Positions 13,479 through 47,770 of a stretch of 52,628 bases of DNA are shown here, piece by piece; position 1 is the stretch's first letter, and each line of letters starts with the position of its first letter. Source of the stretch: Candidatus Omnitrophota bacterium (GTDB lineage: Bacteria > Omnitrophota > Gorgyraeia > Gygaellales > Profunditerraquicolaceae); NCBI GenBank assembly GCA_026387335.1, contig JAPLLX010000007.1:64243-116870 (forward strand), read 5' to 3'. The translations under genes and the position numbers were made by a program. Below the pieces are notes generated by a model, which saw nothing but the letters and a program-made list of their open reading frames with translations, was not told the origin of the DNA and did no database searches.

Positions 13479-14570
13479 ATGAAAGCAATACTGGCGTTAG
13501 AAGACGGAAGGATTTTTCAGGGAAGCTCATTCGGCGCAAACGGCGAAAGAAGCGGCGAGGTGGTTTTTAATACCAGTATGACCGGTTATCAGGAGATCCT
13601 CACCGATCCTTCTTATAAAGGCCAAATTGTAGCTATGACTTATCCGCTTATCGGTAATTATGGCGTGAACGGAGAAGATATGGAGTCGCGTAAGCCATTC
13701 TTAGAAGGGTTCGTAGTCAAGGAGTGCAGCAAAATCGCCAGCAATTGGCGGAGTAAACAATCTCTAGACGATTATCTTAAAGAAAATAAAATTTTAGGGT
13801 TAGAAGGTATAGATACGCGCGCGCTTACCCTGCATATCAGGAAAGCAGGGGCAATGAAGGCTGTGCTCTCAACTATAGATTTAGATGAGAAGAGTTTAGT
13901 TAAAAAAGCCAAGAATTCTCCGGGATTAGTAGGTATCGATTTAGTGAAGAAGGTAAGCGTAGATAAAAAATATCTTTGGCCGGGCATTAGGCAGGGGGCA
14001 TATAAGGTGGTAGTGCTTGATTGCGGGTTAAAATATAACATCCTGCGGGAATTAGCTAAATATAAATGTCAGGTCATTGTTTTACCCGCGCAAGCTTCTG
14101 CCGAAGAGATTTTAAGCTTCAAGCCCGGTGGGCTGCTCTTACCGAATGGCCCGGGGGACCCGGCAGCAGTTAAATATGTTATTCAAACCACGCGTAAACT
14201 AATCGGAAAATTACCGATCTTCGGGATTTGTTTAGGGCACCAAATGCTCGGGCTGGCTTTAGGCGGTAAGACCTATAAACTGAAATTCGGCCATCACGGC
14301 GCGAATCATCCGGTAAAAGACTTAAAGAGCGGGAAGGTTGCCATCACGGCGCAGAATCACGGATTTTGCGTAGATATAGATTCGCTGAATCAAAAAGAAA
14401 TAGAGATTACCCATATAAATCTTAATGACCAGACCCTGGAAGGGATGCGGCATAAAAAATTACCGCTATTTTCTGTGCAGTTCCATCCTGAGGCTTCTGC
14501 CGGTCCGCATGACGCGGAATATTTGTTCGGGAATTTTATCGCTTTAATGAAGAAATATGCCAAAACGTAA
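13479..14570 (+). CDS. carA: Carbamoyl-phosphate synthase small subunit (CarA)
   Basis: A 363-residue glutaminase subunit that supplies ammonia to CarB for carbamoyl phosphate, the precursor of pyrimidines and arginine. The N-terminal small-subunit domain has [20 protein letters not shown]; the class I amidotransferase has [20 protein letters not shown] with the catalytic Cys, and [17 protein letters not shown] with His and Glu. The start follows the pyrG stop by 4 bases and lacks a clear Shine-Dalgarno, so coupling to pyrG is likely. It overlaps carB by 14 bases. Confidence 0.97.
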
Positions 14571-17500
14571 AGACATCAAAAAAATACTTATCATTGGTTC
14601 CGGCCCGATCGTCATAGGCCAGGCCTGCGAATTTGATTATTCCGGAACCCAAGCCTGCAAGGTTTTAAGGCAGGAGGGGTATAAGGTGGTTTTAGTGAAT
14701 TCCAATCCCGCCACCATTATGACCGATCCTGAGATTGCCGATAAGACCTATATAGAGCCTTTAACTACCGAGGTGGTAGAGAAAATCATCGCTAAAGAAA
14801 GGCCCGATGCCCTGCTTCCTACATTAGGAGGACAAACCGCTTTAAATCTCACTGTAGACCTGGCAAAAAAAGGGATATTAAAAAAATATAAAGTCGAGAC
14901 TATCGGCGCAAATATTAAGGCGATTAAAAAAGGCGAAGATAGATCATTATTTAAAGAAGCAATGCAGAGGATCGGCCTGGATTTACCTAAAAGCGACAAG
15001 GCCTATAATTTAAAAGAGGCGGATAAGGTCGCTAAAAAAATAGGATTTCCTCTGATTATCCGGCCGAGTTTTAATTTAGGCGGAACAGGTGCCAGCACAG
15101 CTTATAGTATAAAGGAATTTAAAGAATTAGCCCGCCGCGGCCTTGAGTCAAGTATGATCAGCGAGATCTTAATCGAGGAGTCGGTAACCGGCTGGAAAGA
15201 GTTTGAATTAGAGGTAATGCGCGATTTAAAAGATAATGTAGTGATCATCTGTTCTATTGAAAATTTTGACCCGATGGGAATTCACACCGGGGATAGCATT
15301 ACCGTTGCGCCCATCCAAACTTTAACTGATAAAGAATACCAGAAGATGCGCGATGCGGCAATTGCCTGTATCAGGGAAATCGGTGTAGAGACCGGCGGTT
15401 CAAATATTCAATTTGCCGTTCATCCTAAGACCGGAAGGATGGTAGTAATCGAAATGAACCCCAGGGTCTCCCGGAGTTCGGCCTTAGCCTCTAAGGCGAC
15501 AGGCTTTCCAATCGCAAAAATTGCCGCTAAGCTGGCTGTGGGTTATACCTTGGATGAAATACCTAATGATATTACTCAAAAGACACCCGCTTGTTTTGAG
15601 CCGGCAATTGATTACTGCGTAGTAAAGATCCCCAGATTCACCTTTGAGAAATTCCCGGAAGCAAAAGATATCCTGGGCGTATCAATGAAATCAGTCGGTG
15701 AAACTATGGCCATCGGCCGCACCTTTAAAGAGGCCCTCCAAAAGGGTTTAAGAGGATTAGAGATTAGCCATTATGGGCTAGACAGCAAGCTAAAATACAA
15801 TGAGATTTCGGATAAAAAAATCAGGCAGAGATTAAAAGAACCTAATGCCTCACGGATCTTTTATATTAAATACGCTTTACAAAAAGGTTATAGCGCTAAA
15901 GAAATAATTTCCCTTACTAAAATCGACCCTTGGTTTATCGAAAATATCCGGGAAATAATCAATTTAGAGAATGATTTAAAAAGAGAATTTAATAGAAATA
16001 AAAAATTAAGCTTGGAATCGCTGCGTAAAGCCAAAGAATCCGGTTTTAGCGACCGGCAAATTGCCGAGATCACCCATAGTGATGAAATTTACATAAGGAA
16101 TTTGCGCAAAAAAAATAATATTACCGTTACTTTTAAATTAGTAGATACCTGTGCCGCGGAGTTTATTGCCTATACGCCGTATTATTATTCTACCTATGAG
16201 GAAGAAGATGAGGTAGAGGTTACTAAGAAGAAAAAAATTATGATTTTAGGCGGTGGCCCCAATAGAATCGGCCAAGGCATTGAATTTGATTATTGTTGTT
16301 GTCATGCCTCTTTTGCCCTGAAAGAGTTAGGCTATGAGACAATTATGGTGAATTCCAACCCGGAGACTGTTTCCACGGATTATGATACTTCAGACAGGCT
16401 TTATTTTGAGCCGCTCACCTTTGAAGATGTGATGAATATCATTGATAAAGAAAAACCGGATGGGGTGATCGTGCAATTGGGCGGGCAAACTCCCTTGAAT
16501 TTAGCCAGACAGTTAGAAAAAGCAGGCGCGCGCATTATCGGCACCAGCGTTAATTCCATTGACCGGGCAGAAGATAGGGATAGGTTTGCCAAGGTGTTGA
16601 AGAAATTAGGGATCAACCAGCCGGAAAATGGCTCAGCTATTTCAAAACAAGAAATAATAGAGGTTGCCAAACAAATCGGCTTTCCGGTATTAGTCAGGCC
16701 TTCTTATGTTTTAGGCGGCCGGGCAATGAAGATAGTCTATGATGAGGAAACTCTCGCCGGATTTATTCAAGAAGCCCAGGAGGCCTCGGCAGGTCATCCG
16801 GTATTAATAGATAAATTTTTAGAGGATGCGGTAGAGGTGGATGTAGATGCGATTTCTGATGGTAAGATTACCGTAATCGGCGGAATTATGGAGCATATTG
16901 AAGAGGCGGGGGTGCATTCAGGCGATTCAGCCTGCGTGATTCCCGCGCATACCTTAGGAGATGATATTATTGAGCTGATCAGAAAAGATACTTATGCCTT
17001 AGCCAGAGAATTGCGGGTCAAAGGTTTAATTAACATCCAATTTGCCATCAAAGGAGAGCAGGTGTATGTATTGGAGGTGAACCCCCGGGCTTCCAGGACT
17101 ATTCCTTTTGTCAGTAAAGCTATCGGTGTGCCTTTAGCTAAGTTAGCGGCCAAGGTAATGGCAGGTAAGACCCTTAAGGAATTGGGTTTTACCGCGGAGA
17201 AAAAAGTAAAACATACCTCAGTTAAGGAATCAGTTTTGCCGTTTTCCCGTTTCTCCGGGGTGGATATATTATTAGGGCCGGAGATGAAGTCAACCGGAGA
17301 AGTGATGGGAATAGATTCTTCTTTCGGAAGGGCTTTTTATAAATCTCAGCTTGCCGCAAACCAGGGGCTACCTTTAAAGGGAAAAATTTTCATCAGTGTT
17401 AAGAATAGCGATAAAAGAGATATCGTCTTTATCGCCAAGAAACTTGCGGATATGAATTTTAAGCTGATTGCTACCAAAGGCACATATAAAGCGCTAACCT

Positions 17501-17781
17501 CCAATAATATCAGAGTGCAACTTGTCGGTAAAATTAATGAAGGAGATACCCGCGTATTGGGGCTGATTAAAAAAAGGGAATTGAAATTAATCATTAATAC
17601 TCCTTCGGGCCCGCGCGGCCAATCCGATATGAAACCGATCAGGAGTTTAGCGGTTACCTATGGTGTACCTTGCATTACCACGATTCAAGGGGCGCAGGCA
17701 GCAGTAAATGGGATCGAGTCTATCGCCAAAGGCAACTTAAAAGTAAAGTCTATTCAAGAGTATCACCCAAAGAAAAGTTGA
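14557..17781 (+). CDS. carB: Carbamoyl-phosphate synthase large subunit (CarB)
   Basis: At 1074 residues this is a full-length CarB. It holds two homologous ATP-grasp halves: the N-half opens with [19 protein letters not shown] and the C-half with [20 protein letters not shown] at about residue 565. [14 protein letters not shown] and [14 protein letters not shown] are the nucleotide-binding loops of the two halves. A middle oligomerisation region and a C-terminal MGS-like allosteric domain ([12 protein letters not shown] onward) complete it. It overlaps carA by 14 bases. It is the last gene of the nitrogen/pyrimidine operon; the next gene is convergent, with only 3 bases between the stop codons and no clear terminator. 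Confidence 0.98.
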
Positions 17782-17784
17782 GGA

Positions 17785-19227
17785 TTAGGCGTTTTTAATA
17801 AAGGTGCGTTTCAGGGAATCTCCGAGGCGGCCGCGGCGTAATTCTCTGGCAATCACGCTTAAGAAAAGGCGGGGCGCTACGCATAAGAAGAAGAGTATTT
17901 CTTTAAAGGTAAAAAACTTGACTATAAAAACATTCTTCCAGAGTATTTTTACGTATCTGGAGGGGGTGTAGAAAGTAAATTTAATTCGCCGGCCGATTTT
18001 CTTTAAACTAGCATGGCTGTAGGTGTCGGAATAAAGTTCTCCTCTTTCGGTGACATGGTACCCGGGAGTTTTCTCGGCGAGTTCTCTTAGGGGAGAGAAC
18101 TTTTCAATCCTTAGCTTGTTGCAGGCGATGGAATCAACCCCGATCTCCTTGGCGAATTGCCCGATATAAAGCATTTCTTTTTCCGTCTCGCCGATATTTC
18201 CGTAGATAAAGTAACCGTTATAAAAAATAGGGTATTTTACCAGGACTTTAAAATATTTTCGTATGGCCTCCTGATTAAAACCTTTGTTCAGCTGTTTTAA
18301 TATCCAGTCATGAGGGGATTCAATCCCGATCAAGAGCGCCTTAAATCCGGCTTTAACCATTTTCTCGAGCAGTCTAGGGTATTTGGCGATATCCAGGCGC
18401 GCCTGAGCCATAAAACGTTTTTTGATCTTCCTTTCAATAATTAAATCACAAATTTTCTCCGCCCTCTCCGGGTCAGCAAAAAAATCATCATCACTAAGGA
18501 TTATCACTCCCGCTTTTAAACCCTGTATTTCATCGACTACGGAATTTACGCTGCGGACAGCATAATTCCTTTTTTGCCCGAGAGGATTTAAGCTGAAGGT
18601 GCAGAATTTACAGTTAAAAGGGCAGCCCCGCGCGCTTAACACAGAATCAAAACTTATATCTGCTATTTCTATGCCGTTTAAGGCAAAGGAATATTCGTTA
18701 CGCCGCAGGGAGCGGTCAGGCGCGCCTAAGGTATCGACATCGGGGAGGGGACGGTTAGGGTTATGCGCTATCTTGCCATTTTCACGGTAGGAAATGCCTA
18801 AAATATCTTTAAGCGGTTTGTCTTTTAATATCTCTTTAATTGTCTCTTCGCCCTCGCCTCTGACAATGATATCAATTGTGGGGCAGGTTTTAAAAAGTTC
18901 CTCTACCTTTTCGGTAGCCTTATATCCGCCTACGACTAGCGGTATGTTATCCGGCACGCGGTTAAGCATTTGGCAGATTTCGTCAAACTTGCTGTCCCAA
19001 CCGATACTGACGCAGAGAATGTCGATCTGGCCGGATATAAAGGCAATGAGTTTTTCCGTGTCAGATAAGTCTTGTTCATGCCTTAAATCCATAAGGGTGA
19101 TTTTGTTGACCAGCCCCTTGGCGCTCGTAGCCACATATTCAAGCCCCGTAGGAGGGAAGAGCATCATCGTGCTGTTGGCGTTACTTTCAATATAGGGATT
19201 CAGGAATAAGGCGTGCTTGTATTTAAT
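17785..19227 (-). CDS. B12-binding radical SAM protein, probable ATT start
   Basis: A radical SAM enzyme of about 480 residues with an N-terminal cobalamin-binding-like region and the cluster motif C-x3-C-x2-C (CPFNCKFC, residues 202-209 from the proposed start). The substrate is not evident; relatives act on lipids, hopanoids or cell-envelope compounds. The first ATG (19167) would remove a conserved stretch: the frame upstream encodes KHALFLNPYIE, the usual first strand of this family, and stays open to a stop about 36 bases before the proposed start. No ATG, GTG or TTG occurs there. An ATT at 19227 has AAGGA 7 bases upstream and gives MKYKHALFLNPY. An in-frame CTG further in is a weaker alternative. 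The gene is convergent with carB. Confidence 0.85.
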   Translation of the reverse strand: MKYKHALFLNPYIESNANSTMMLFPPTGLEYVATSAKGLVNKITLMDLRHEQDLSDTEKLIAFISGQIDILCVSIGWDSKFDEICQMLNRVPDNIPLVVGGYKATEKVEELFKTCPTIDIIVRGEGEETIKEILKDKPLKDILGISYRENGKIAHNPNRPLPDVDTLGAPDRSLRRNEYSFALNGIEIADISFDSVLSARGCPFNCKFCTFSLNPLGQKRNYAVRSVNSVVDEIQGLKAGVIILSDDDFFADPERAEKICDLIIERKIKKRFMAQARLDIAKYPRLLEKMVKAGFKALLIGIESPHDWILKQLNKGFNQEAIRKYFKVLVKYPIFYNGYFIYGNIGETEKEMLYIGQFAKEIGVDSIACNKLRIEKFSPLRELAEKTPGYHVTERGELYSDTYSHASLKKIGRRIKFTFYTPSRYVKILWKNVFIVKFFTFKEILFFLCVAPRLFLSVIARELRRGRLGDSLKRTFIKNA

Positions 19228-19330
19228 ATCAATTTCCTTTTTAATTGTTAAATTTAATTATATTACTTTAGCATTAAATAATAGTTTAGGCAATAGATTA
19301 GAAGAATAGAGTATTAAATCTAAAATGTCC

Positions 19331-19388: not shown

Positions 19389-20027
19389 ATGACGGATAAA
19401 AAATCCCGATCCACCTGGAAGAGTTTGAAAGAAAATTTTCCCTGGAAAGATATGTTTTTAGGTTTTTTAATCCCGAAGGTATTTTTTCTTTATGGCGCGC
19501 ATCACGGTATGGCTTTTCTCTGGGGAGCTATAGCCGTAGCCTGGTGCGTCGGGGTATTTTATCTGCATCAGGTAAAAACGCACAAGGTGAATTTCTTCGC
19601 CGTCTTTGCCGTAATCATGATCATGGCCCGTATAATCGTGGTGGTCGCCGAAAAAAATCCCCGGATGTATTTATACGTGTTGGCGCTGGATAATTTTATT
19701 GTGGGAACTATTTTTATGGCCTCGCTTTTATTTAAGCGTTCACTGATGCAGTTGTTCGCTGAATCTGTCAGCGCGCAAATTCCGCAGGAGATCTTAGCTT
19801 CAGTATATTACGCAAAAGCCTGGAGGATAGTTACTTTCGTATGGGCGATAGTCTTTATACTCTTTGCGCTGGTTTTGGTGTTATTAAAAGCCTGTAATCT
19901 AAGAATTGTCGGCCTGATCGATATGTTCGCCAGTTGGCCGCTTATGATTATTCTATTTCTTTTTACCCTGAAATTCCCCGCTTGGTACTGGAAAAATAAT
20001 TACGCCAGGATAAAGGCAGGAGAATAA
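19389..20027 (+). CDS. VC0807-like polytopic membrane protein
   Basis: A 212-residue inner-membrane protein of unknown function with about six hydrophobic segments. The start of the hydrophobic part, LGFLIPKVFFLYGA, and the spacing of helices with a middle charged loop (HQVKTHKVN) recall the VC0807/DUF3159 family of predicted membrane proteins; that assignment is by pattern only. The N-terminus is basic and probably cytosolic. It has a good promoter and ribosome site and lies 16 bases before the rubrerythrin gene, so the two are probably co-transcribed. Confidence 0.7.
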   Translation: MTDKKSRSTWKSLKENFPWKDMFLGFLIPKVFFLYGAHHGMAFLWGAIAVAWCVGVFYLHQVKTHKVNFFAVFAVIMIMARIIVVVAEKNPRMYLYVLALDNFIVGTIFMASLLFKRSLMQLFAESVSAQIPQEILASVYYAKAWRIVTFVWAIVFILFALVLVLLKACNLRIVGLIDMFASWPLMIILFLFTLKFPAWYWKNNYARIKAGE

Positions 20028-29391: not shown

Positions 29392-30042
29392 ATGCGGCGA
29401 TTTTTAGGGGTTTTCCTATTCGCTTTATTGTTTCTGACGGTATTAAGCAATTTTCTTGTTTATGAACACCGTCTGCGGAATAACTTTAGCGAGACAAGAG
29501 AACGGTTAATGCTCATTGCTTCCAATGCCGCGCTTTCTATAGATGCCGAAGATATTTTTAATATTCCTTTGGAGCAGAGATCTGAAGGGACTCCGGGATA
29601 TATGGTTATTTATCATAAATTAGTAGAGATTAAAAAAGCTAATCCTTCCATAAAATATGTTTATATCATGACTACTACGGGCCAGCCGGGAATCCTGCAA
29701 TATGTGGTTGATGCTGACCCGGTCCCTCAGATAATAACCGCGCACTGCCCTACTTCATTACCCGGAGATAAGTATGATGCCAGAATGTTTCCTGAAATGA
29801 TGGCTGCTTATAATGGACCTTCTGCTGATAAAAAGATCACTACTGATGTATGGGGGATATTTATTTCCGGTTATGCCCCTATCCGGGATTCAGAAGGAAG
29901 GTCGGTGGCAATCTTAGGCGTAGATAGCGATGCTTCTTCTATGCGGGATATGCAAAAAGGCGCTAAGGTCCGTGGAAAAATCGCGTTATTCGCCGGGATC
30001 TTGTTCCTTGTTTCATTTATAACTTTAATTAAAAGAGGGTAG
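29392..30042 (+). CDS. Membrane-anchored Cache-type sensor domain without output domain
   Basis: A 216-residue protein with an N-terminal membrane helix (about residues 4-22), a periplasmic domain and a second helix near residues 196-213, ending four residues later. The periplasmic part resembles Cache/PDC sensor domains: IKYVYIMTTTG, YVVDADP, then DVWGIFISGYAPI and VAILGVDSDASS. Such domains usually feed histidine kinases, chemoreceptors or cyclases, but here the protein stops after the second helix and no output domain follows. It is either a stand-alone sensor with a partner elsewhere or a shortened receptor. GGGAGG precedes the start. It follows the sugar transport genes. Confidence 0.72.
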   Translation: MRRFLGVFLFALLFLTVLSNFLVYEHRLRNNFSETRERLMLIASNAALSIDAEDIFNIPLEQRSEGTPGYMVIYHKLVEIKKANPSIKYVYIMTTTGQPGILQYVVDADPVPQIITAHCPTSLPGDKYDARMFPEMMAAYNGPSADKKITTDVWGIFISGYAPIRDSEGRSVAILGVDSDASSMRDMQKGAKVRGKIALFAGILFLVSFITLIKRG

Positions 30043-30046
30043 AGCG

Positions 30047-30721
30047 ATTAAAGCAATTATTTTATCAGCGGTCTTATTGTTTGGCGTTTTCTCTGTCAAT
30101 CTTTGCTCTGCGCAAGAGCCTATTGAAATAATTTCTTATGATATCAAACCTATAGGGGTTTGCGAGTACCAGGATTTTGGTCCGATAGAATACAGCGGCA
30201 GTAAAGTAAATTTGTGTGTTTTTAAAACAAAAGTAACGGGATTTGAGGATAAGGAAGTGATCTTTAGTGACCTCCAGACCCGCCTGCCTGTTTTAGTTAA
30301 ACGCGATATTTCAATCTGGATCCATAAAGAGAACATTACCGAAGAATATTTCCCTAAGAGTAATAGCTTAAAGCTGACCAAGTTTGAAGGTGGCAAGAAA
30401 ACGGAAGAATATTTTATCAAAGGGAGCGCTCCTATACAAAGCGCTATTCTGGTTCCTTTTTCTCTGCGCAATGTCCCGGAGTTAAAAATAGGCTCTACCT
30501 TTGATATAGTCTTGCCTCAAGAATTCAGGGTAAAATTATCTTCAATAGAAGAAGTGACTGTCGCCGCCGGTACATTTAAAGCGTATCATTTTACCAGCAC
30601 TCCCCCGAAATTTGAAATATGGATCAGCGCCGATGAGCTTAGGCTGCCGGTTAAGATCAAGGGCCTGGGCGCGTTCTCTTATACTTTAGAGATGAAAAAG
30701 CGCGTGGCTAATAAAAGGTAA
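30047..30721 (+). CDS. Secreted DUF3108-like protein, probable ATT start
   Basis: A periplasmic protein of about 224 residues. From an ATT at 30047 the frame reads MKAIILSAVLLFGVFSV, then NLCSAQEP, a complete signal peptide. AGAGGG ends 7 bases upstream. The first standard start codon (TTG 30077) would cut the signal peptide in half. The mature part is beta-rich with paired motifs (ITEEYFPKSNSLKL, AGTFKAYHFTSTPPKFEIWI, DELRLPVKIKG) like DUF3108 proteins, whose role in envelope biogenesis is unclear. It starts 4 bases after the Cache-protein stop and is followed by a DUF2062 gene 3 bases later. Confidence 0.75.
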   Translation: MKAIILSAVLLFGVFSVNLCSAQEPIEIISYDIKPIGVCEYQDFGPIEYSGSKVNLCVFKTKVTGFEDKEVIFSDLQTRLPVLVKRDISIWIHKENITEEYFPKSNSLKLTKFEGGKKTEEYFIKGSAPIQSAILVPFSLRNVPELKIGSTFDIVLPQEFRVKLSSIEEVTVAAGTFKAYHFTSTPPKFEIWISADELRLPVKIKGLGAFSYTLEMKKRVANKR

Positions 30722-33049: not shown

Positions 33050-33062
33050 GAATATGTAATCG

Positions 33063-33160
33063 CATTACGGGGAGGTCGTGATAGCGGCCTGAGAGTCTTC
33101 GTTAAGACGGAGTTACCCGAGAAACCTGATCTGGATAATGCCAGCGGAGGGAAGGATTAG
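33063..33160 (+). promoter_or_regulatory. TPP riboswitch (THI element)
   Basis: The conserved thi-box parts are present in order: GGGGAG, CTGAGAG, a variable P3 arm, ACCCGAGAAACCTGATCTGG and ATAATGCCAGCG followed by AGGGAAGG. Thiamine pyrophosphate binding is expected to switch the downstream hairpin at 33168. The target is thi4, consistent with feedback control of thiamine synthesis. Confidence 0.95.
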
Positions 33161-33167
33161 AATATCA

Positions 33168-33196
33168 GCCCTTATGCACCTGGCCTAAGGGCTTTT
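33168..33196 (+). terminator. Riboswitch-controlled terminator
   Basis: GCCCTTA (33168-33174) pairs with TAAGGGC (33186-33192) and is followed by TTTT. It lies between the riboswitch and the thi4 ribosome site, so premature termination is the likely output. Confidence 0.82.
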
Positions 33197-46279: not shown

Positions 46280-46336
46280 AAGATTAGAAAATCTTAAGCC
46301 GTAGAGGGAAGACTACTAACCTTTACGGTTTTTTTG
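46280..46336 (+). terminator. Leader hairpin and attenuator-like terminator
   Basis: A small hairpin AAGATT/AATCTT (46280-46285 with 46290-46295) is followed by CCGTAGAGG (46299-46307) pairing with CCTTTACGG (46320-46328; one G-U pair) and eight T residues. It stands only about 30 bases after the predicted transcription start, upstream of the helicase genes, so it can act as an attenuator. Confidence 0.68.
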
Positions 46337-46355
46337 TTAAAAAAAAGGGGGGGCT

Positions 46356-46502
46356 ATCAAGAAGATAAAGAGTTCATTAAAAGGTAGGAAATGTAAATAT
46401 CCCCATTGCGGGCATATCTTAAGCATCTATAACCACGAAGATTACTGCCATGTCCATCTTGCCCAGTTCCCCTTGGATTATAAGCCCAAGGTCCACAAAT
46501 AA
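46356..46502 (+). CDS. 48-residue zinc-finger protein, probable ATC start
   Basis: A small open frame coded from ATC 46356: MKKIKSSLKGRKCKYPHCG opens it, then HILSIYNHEDYCHVHL. The ligand set C13-x4-C18-x12-C31-x2-H34 is a zinc-finger pattern. No ATG, GTG or TTG occurs in frame after the stop at 46338. A purine-rich run of six A and seven G residues (46341-46353) lies just upstream and could act as a Shine-Dalgarno. The stop is 2 bases before the helicase ATG, so the pair is likely coupled. Possible roles are RNA binding or helping the helicase; these are inferred. Confidence 0.65.
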   Translation: MKKIKSSLKGRKCKYPHCGHILSIYNHEDYCHVHLAQFPLDYKPKVHK

Positions 46503-46504
46503 AA

Positions 46505-47770
46505 ATGCCGCATAGGTCAGATACCGCAAATACTTTTCCCCAGGAAGATAAGAAAACAGCTCAAGATTTCTACGGCCTAAGCATAGCGCCGAAGATCCTG
46601 GATATTCTTGAACGCATAAAATTTAAAGTTCCTACACCCATTCAGCTTAAAGCTATTCCCTTGGCAATCCAGGGTAAAGATATTATTGGTATTGCCCAGA
46701 CCGGGACCGGCAAGACGCATGCGTTCGCTATCCCTATGGTCCAGCAACTCGCGCAAAAAAAAGGTACGGGCCTGATTTTAGCGCCGACCCGGGAGCTGGC
46801 CATTCAGATCGACGAAGCCTTTCAGGACTTGACCCGCGCTTTCGGGATGAAGACAGCCTGCCTTATCGGAGGCGCTTCCATGAATGACCAGGTGCAGGCG
46901 TTGCGCAAGTCCCCCCGGGTAATCATCGCTACTCCGGGCAGGCTTATTGACCATATGGGCAAGTGGAATGTCATACCGGATGAGGTAGTAATGCTTGTTT
47001 TGGATGAAGCTGACCGTATGCTGGATATGGGTTTTGCTCCGCAGATTGATAAGATCTTGCGCTTTCTGCCTAAGGATAGGCAAACTATGCTTTTTTCAGC
47101 TACTATTCCCAAAGAGATCATGGATATAGTTTCTAAATATATGAAGTTGCCTTTGAGCGTTGAGATTGCTCCTTCCGGGACCACCGCTGAACGCGTTACT
47201 CAGGAGATGTATATTGTCAAAAAAGAATCTAAGCCCCAATTGCTGAATAAAGTTCTTTCGCAATATCACGGGACTATTTTGTTATTTTCCCGGACCAAGC
47301 ATAACGCGCGTAAAATCACCCGCTCAATAAGGGATGCCGGATACAGCTGCGCTGAAATCCATTCCAACCGTTCTTTAGCTCAGCGCCGCGAAGCGCTTGA
47401 CGGTTTTAAGTCAGGCAGATATAGGGTGCTTGTCGCTACCGACATTGCTGCTAGGGGCATCGATGTAACCGGAATTGAGTTGGTAATTAATTATGATTTA
47501 CCGGAAGACGCGCAAAATTATGTCCACCGAATCGGGCGCACAGCCAGGGCAGGGCATAAGGGCCATGCGATTTCTTTTGCCACGCCGGATCAGGCGCGGG
47601 ATGTGCGCGATATTGAAAAGCTTATCCGTATCACCTTACCTATATCTAAGCATCCGGGAATATCCCTGGAGCAATTCCTCCACACTTCCAGCTCTCCCTC
47701 AGAGAGTAGGCACAAACCCAATCGTTATCAAAATCAAAAGCCAAGACATAACAAATACCGTAGGTTTTAA
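46505..47770 (+). CDS. DEAD-box ATP-dependent RNA helicase
   Basis: A 421-residue helicase core of the RhlE/CsdA type. Motifs in order: Q motif FKVPTPIQ, motif I AQTGTGKT, Ia APTRELA, II VLDEADRMLD, III SAT, IV-like ILLFSRTKHN, V ATDIAARGID and VI HRIGRTARAG. The tail after residue 385 is basic and polar (KPNRYQNQKPRHNKYRRF), suited to RNA contact. It probably unwinds structured mRNA or rRNA, often a cold-response task. It has no own ribosome site and starts 2 bases after the small zinc-finger ORF, behind an attenuator-like leader. Confidence 0.94.
   Translation: MPHRSDTANTFPQEDKKTAQDFYGLSIAPKILDILERIKFKVPTPIQLKAIPLAIQGKDIIGIAQTGTGKTHAFAIPMVQQLAQKKGTGLILAPTRELAIQIDEAFQDLTRAFGMKTACLIGGASMNDQVQALRKSPRVIIATPGRLIDHMGKWNVIPDEVVMLVLDEADRMLDMGFAPQIDKILRFLPKDRQTMLFSATIPKEIMDIVSKYMKLPLSVEIAPSGTTAERVTQEMYIVKKESKPQLLNKVLSQYHGTILLFSRTKHNARKITRSIRDAGYSCAEIHSNRSLAQRREALDGFKSGRYRVLVATDIAARGIDVTGIELVINYDLPEDAQNYVHRIGRTARAGHKGHAISFATPDQARDVRDIEKLIRITLPISKHPGISLEQFLHTSSSPSESRHKPNRYQNQKPRHNKYRRF

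Follow-up and report, generated by a model that had tools for sequence, protein, structure and literature searches.

A gene for a B12-binding radical SAM protein in a Candidatus Omnitrophota genome raises the question of where its translation begins, as its reading frame appears to continue upstream of the first standard start codon. The gene lies in a window of 52,628 nucleotides, the whole stretch of DNA that was analysed, and the initial annotation had proposed that it starts at an ATT. We addressed this by comparison with orthologues from related genomes and from a public species collection, the close ones in the collection being Candidatus Omnitrophota. The features concerned are the following:

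17785 to 19227, minus strand: coding sequence of the B12-binding radical SAM protein, 480 codons counted from the ATT, with matches to PF04055 and PF02310
19225 to 19227, minus strand: ATT start codon, in the same alignment column as the Met of the orthologues
19165 to 19167, minus strand: ATG, codon 21, the first standard in-frame start, rejected as the start
19258 to 19260, minus strand: stop codon TAA, in frame with the ATT and ahead of it, from translation and alignment
19235 to 19239, minus strand: AAGGA Shine-Dalgarno (SD), 7-nt spacer, predicted duplex of -6.2 kcal/mol with an assumed 16S tail

In a profile search the product matches PF04055 with 62.6 bits and PF02310 with 37.7 bits, both above the cut-off, and the translation contains the cluster motif CPFNCKFC (CxxxCxxC). 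By the same kind of comparison it resembles HpnJ and BchE, with scores far under the curated equivalog cut-offs (122.8 against 577.6 and 110.7 against 481.35 bits, respectively). The gene at 14557-17781 is convergent with it and the gene at 19389 is divergent from it.

Start site of the radical SAM gene

Between the stop at 19260-19258 and ATG 19167 the minus-strand frame holds no ATG, GTG or TTG, as had been claimed, and the AAGGA described 7 bases ahead of the ATT is present (19239-19235). The aligned orthologues have ATG, ATC, ATA or GTG exactly at the ATT column, and the family N-terminus coincides with it, matching the Met of the orthologues. The suggestion of family-like sequence ahead of ATG 19167 also holds, with the residues HALFLNPY kept and codons 2-20 of coding type. 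Among the 16 taxa with ATT, ATC or ATA at the column (ATH, or AUH in the message), differences in codons 2-20 are distributed 232/315/1049 over codon positions 1/2/3, a coding pattern, compared to 527/583/601 for the eight codons that precede the ATH, a non-coding one, and the start column itself varies at the third base only. The match of the column, together with a coding pattern running from the start codon, argues that translation begins at this column in the AUH species too. The proposal of ATT as the true start is thus strongly supported, and we regard it as nearly certain.

It is very improbable that the gene starts at ATG 19167, with the upstream sequence untranslated. Though this is the first standard start, and orthologues starting at codon 1 conserve its Met too, those orthologues start 20 codons further upstream, codons 2-20 evolve like coding sequence with HALFLNPY retained, and position 3 of the BchE profile aligns with residue 7 of the ATT-started protein. 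More improbable again is that the sequence was misread or misassembled, or that an indel conceals an upstream ATG: the window does come from a metagenome-type assembly of 7 contigs, but ATT, ATC or ATA stands at the column in 16 distinct orthologous sequences from largely separate assemblies, infC of this genome behaves as expected, and no result of the analysis indicates an error. With the rare ATT start, standard gene finders would trim about 20 amino acids off the protein.

Among 18 sequences from related genomes with a readable start, that of the window included, eight have ATG at the start column, ATT and ATC each occur there in four, and the other two use an ATG or TTG a few codons upstream. 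Considering all 48 distinct orthologues, 16 have ATT, ATC or ATA at the column, and in the remaining 32 a standard start codon (ATG, GTG or TTG) stands either at the column or no more than 10 codons upstream. On a maximum-likelihood tree, many inner branches of which are weakly supported, the AUH starts are confined to one group of 25 members, and AUH and standard starts must have replaced each other at least 5 times, compared to a mean of 13.7 after shuffling. Within the group, 16 of the 25 members have AUH, with several switches to or from ATG. The third start base is T in 11, C in four, A in one and G in eight; in the 25th member (L150) the start is an ATG located two codons upstream. Four-fold sites are about 27% G in these genomes, and set against that figure the counts do not support avoidance of G in this gene: the third base looks roughly free rather than kept away from G. 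No usable upstream in-frame AUG, GUG or UUG is found in the window or in 13 of the other 15 AUH sequences; in L007 an ATG stands in frame six codons ahead of the AUH, and L020 has a distant GTG at -20.

Promoter, leader and Shine-Dalgarno sequence

Upstream of the ATT lies a putative promoter:

19288 to 19293, minus strand: -35 box TTGCCT, the promoter being conserved among relatives by sequence comparison
19265 to 19270, minus strand: -10 box TAAAGT, 17-nt spacer, giving a predicted leader of about 30 nt

The pattern TTGC(C/T)T-N17-TARAGT, or a one-base variant of it, is found 34-40 nt ahead of the ATH in the window and in seven other AUH taxa. A matching promoter lies 12, 9 and 5 nt before the ATG in L148, L012 and L150, respectively, where the SD-bearing stretch is absent; L012, with stop codons inside its frame, is weaker evidence. 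A single conserved promoter serves the SD-led ATT of the window and, in relatives, an ATG behind a short leader. In distant orthologues a TATAAT six nt ahead of the ATG or GTG is frequent (L018, L159, L160, L163, L164 and L165). More generally, within the stretches from four genomes (G000, G001, G003 and G004), a TATAAT-like box occurs 4-9 nt upstream of 23 of 198 ATG starts with a weak SD, compared to 3 of 231 with a strong one, an excess suggesting that leaderless messages are likely a normal mode in this lineage.

We computed SD energies with a 16S tail that is assumed, being present in a genome of the same order (G041) and not found in this assembly. The median predicted energy is -7.35 kcal/mol for AUH orthologues and -2.7 kcal/mol for the others (Mann-Whitney p 3.5e-5), and the difference holds inside the 25-member group (p 0.003). 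An SD of -5 kcal/mol or lower is predicted for 14 of the 16 AUH orthologues, including that of the window, whose own SD is moderate. The taxa are not independent, and the independent contrasts, with three well-supported pairs for the radical SAM gene and two for the peptide gene described below, are too few for significance; phylogenetically independent support for a rule linking SD and start codon is thin. There are also exceptions, as L151, L152 and L143 have an ATG with at least some SD, that of L151 being good. Another exception is L145, where the radical SAM start at 2501 is an ATT with neither SD nor leader and a -10 box almost on the start; a leaderless AUU there would be odd.

In these alignments AUH starts accompany an SD, and AUG starts mostly have a weak SD or none and are often apparently leaderless. 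A single site at which SD-led AUH and no-SD AUG both occur offers a natural experiment on the trade-off between SD and start codon, and the alternation supplies a sequence signature for finding further such genes.

AUH starts elsewhere in the window and genome

Two further genes in the window had been said to behave in the same way. Both do have AUH starts, which supports the grouping, though the second starts with ATC and not ATT:

30047 to 30721, plus strand: second ATT-start gene, encoding a secreted-type protein with the signal-peptide-like N-terminus IKAIILSAVLLFGVFS
46356 to 46502, plus strand: ATC-start gene for a 48-residue Cys/His-rich peptide, with the G-rich SD AAAAGGGGGGG upstream
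46505 to 47770, plus strand: CshA-like DEAD-box RNA helicase, immediately following the peptide gene

The first opens with ATT AAA GCA ATT ATT and has GAGGG at 30035-30039. In the close orthologues L219-L223 an ATG in frame lies 6 nt past a TATAAT-like box, and these ATG forms are probably leaderless. Counting this genome, 31 of 59 genomes have the peptide, and in the 30 loci read its start is ATC or ATT in 14 and ATG or GTG in 16. All 14 AUH loci have an SD, compared to 8 of the 16 others (p 0.003), and the helicase gene follows directly in 25 of the 30. Positions 46356-47770 form a conserved two-gene unit, an AUH-start Cys/His-rich peptide and then a CshA-like helicase. The window thus holds three ATH-start genes within 52 kb, with comparative support, including one for a conserved micro-protein, easily missed, that is encoded ahead of the RNA helicase.

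Just upstream of the peptide gene, at 46299-46337, is a terminator-like hairpin (CCGTAGAGG...CCTTTACGG) with a T-run. The sequence GACTACTAACCTTTACGG there is conserved in several relatives; the hairpin has no Rfam match and is a possible attenuator. The sole Rfam match in the window at the gathering threshold is a TPP riboswitch (RF00059) at 33058-33170 on the plus strand.

Outside the window, infC of this genome starts with ATA (G000 contig 4, L078-L079), and in the relatives read its start is ATA, ATT or ATC in 30 of 30, never ATG. A GTG within the infC SD could mislead gene callers. We also surveyed starts fixed by orthology, 556 in four genomes, of which 125 in this one, using stretches that together span about a third of the genome; only a handful of genes came out without a standard start. 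The 125 consist of 108 ATG, 9 GTG and 8 TTG, and we rejected the idea that start-codon rules have changed across the whole lineage; once the four AUH genes are added, AUH starts make up about 4 of 129 genes checked, or about 3%. The survey would miss cases like infC, with its GTG inside the SD. Loss of IF3 is likewise rejected, infC being present with a full match to its C-terminal domain.

The first pairwise scans were swamped by opposite-strand shadow frames, conserved upstream SDs and overlapping genes, and limiting them to real coding frames improved the survey. A start finder based on codon usage and free of start codons had too little power, at about 0.07 nats per codon, and gave noisy results. 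On contig 4 we discarded giant open frames of 24,000-30,000 codons; the frame of 24,260 codons scored as bases left unread, in line with a count of 72,000 masked N for the stretches examined.

Mechanism and comparison with known systems

The best explanation of the locus is SD-dependent, weak AUU initiation from a leader of about 30 nt, to which as a whole we give a probability of about 0.88. Comparison shows where the gene starts, that many species have AUH there, that codons 2-20 are coding, that the promoter is conserved and that AUH goes together with an SD across taxa. The initiator Met would be placed at AUU 19227 by the SD AAGGA, on a leader transcribed from the conserved sigma-70-type promoter. 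AUU would pair imperfectly with the initiator anticodon at its third base, and we propose that this makes initiation weak and reliant on the SD. If a weak start is tolerated or wanted in this gene, the third base could then vary under the SD leader. Relatives with no leader or SD would retain ATG or GTG, many apparently with short-leader or leaderless messages. Low expression, SD dependence and the leaderless AUG forms are what we infer here, and the ATA, ATT and ATC starts of infC in the same lineage count as support for the explanation. More tentatively, and rather doubtfully, a small set of genes in Omnitrophota may switch between two equivalent arrangements for a weak start, leaderless or short-leader AUG and SD-led AUU or AUC, under one conserved promoter, since selection would keep initiation low or IF3-sensitive rather than keep the start codon itself.

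The initial annotation had gone further and suggested that this group of genes might be coupled to translation state, AUU initiation being known for infC and disfavoured by IF3. On such a reading the AUH genes would form an IF3-sensitive group, rising together with infC when free IF3 is low. The infC starts, ATA here and ATA, ATT or ATC in all relatives read, are consistent with this. Leaderless messages are reportedly disfavoured by IF3, and if the AUG forms are so disfavoured they would be an equivalent route to the same control. A precedent exists in Streptomyces sigR, the GTC start of which is repressed by IF3 (PMC5472188). However, third-base use in the AUH group is compatible with free drift, many relatives use a plain ATG in both the radical SAM and peptide genes, relatives with both an SD and ATG exist (L151, and several for the peptide gene), and no shared function is evident among the AUH genes. 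Control of the radical SAM gene by IF3 or translation state is plausible on this analysis, and on balance we think it unlikely.

Weak AUU initiation guided by an SD has known parallels, among them infC. Bacterial infC starts with AUU, AUA or AUC, and IF3 regulates its own synthesis through it. The radical SAM gene is similar in having an AUH start, an SD and no usable standard start in frame; it differs in having ATG in many relatives, a codon at which infC, ATA in this genome, never starts in the 30 that were read, and in having no known link to IF3. In Staphylococcus aureus, cvfC1 (AUU) and ccpN (AUA) have conserved starts with strong or extended SDs and in most tests give about 10% of the output of AUG; cvfC1 encodes a small putative zinc-finger protein and is first in its operon (PMC13009471). 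These share a non-canonical start with an SD, and cvfC1 resembles the peptide at 46356, but they are other genes in another phylum, their SDs are strong rather than moderate, and the start in our case alternates with AUG. The AUU start of E. coli pcnB limits expression (Binns and Masters 2002, as described in PMC13009471); that gene is unrelated and shares the AUU start, the limit on expression having been measured in E. coli and being proposed for ours. As for sigR, it resembles the radical SAM gene in starting at a codon other than AUG while encoding no initiation factor, though the codon is GTC rather than ATH, and repression by IF3 is shown for sigR only.

Belinky et al. 2017 found that a stronger SD accompanies weak start codons, a relationship shared here, though that study concerns GUG and UUG; it counted 1 AUG-to-AUU change among 61,358 AUG starts, and leaderless messages appear to need AUG (PMC5622118). 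A brief literature search found no paper on start codons in Omnitrophota. Very few genes other than infC are known to have ATH starts, and a gene caller restricted to ATG, GTG and TTG truncates or overlooks them. The radical SAM gene is a further AUH-start gene, unusual in that SD-led AUH alternates with no-SD AUG, and on the best reading it belongs with infC, pcnB, cvfC1 and ccpN in the class of AUH starts.
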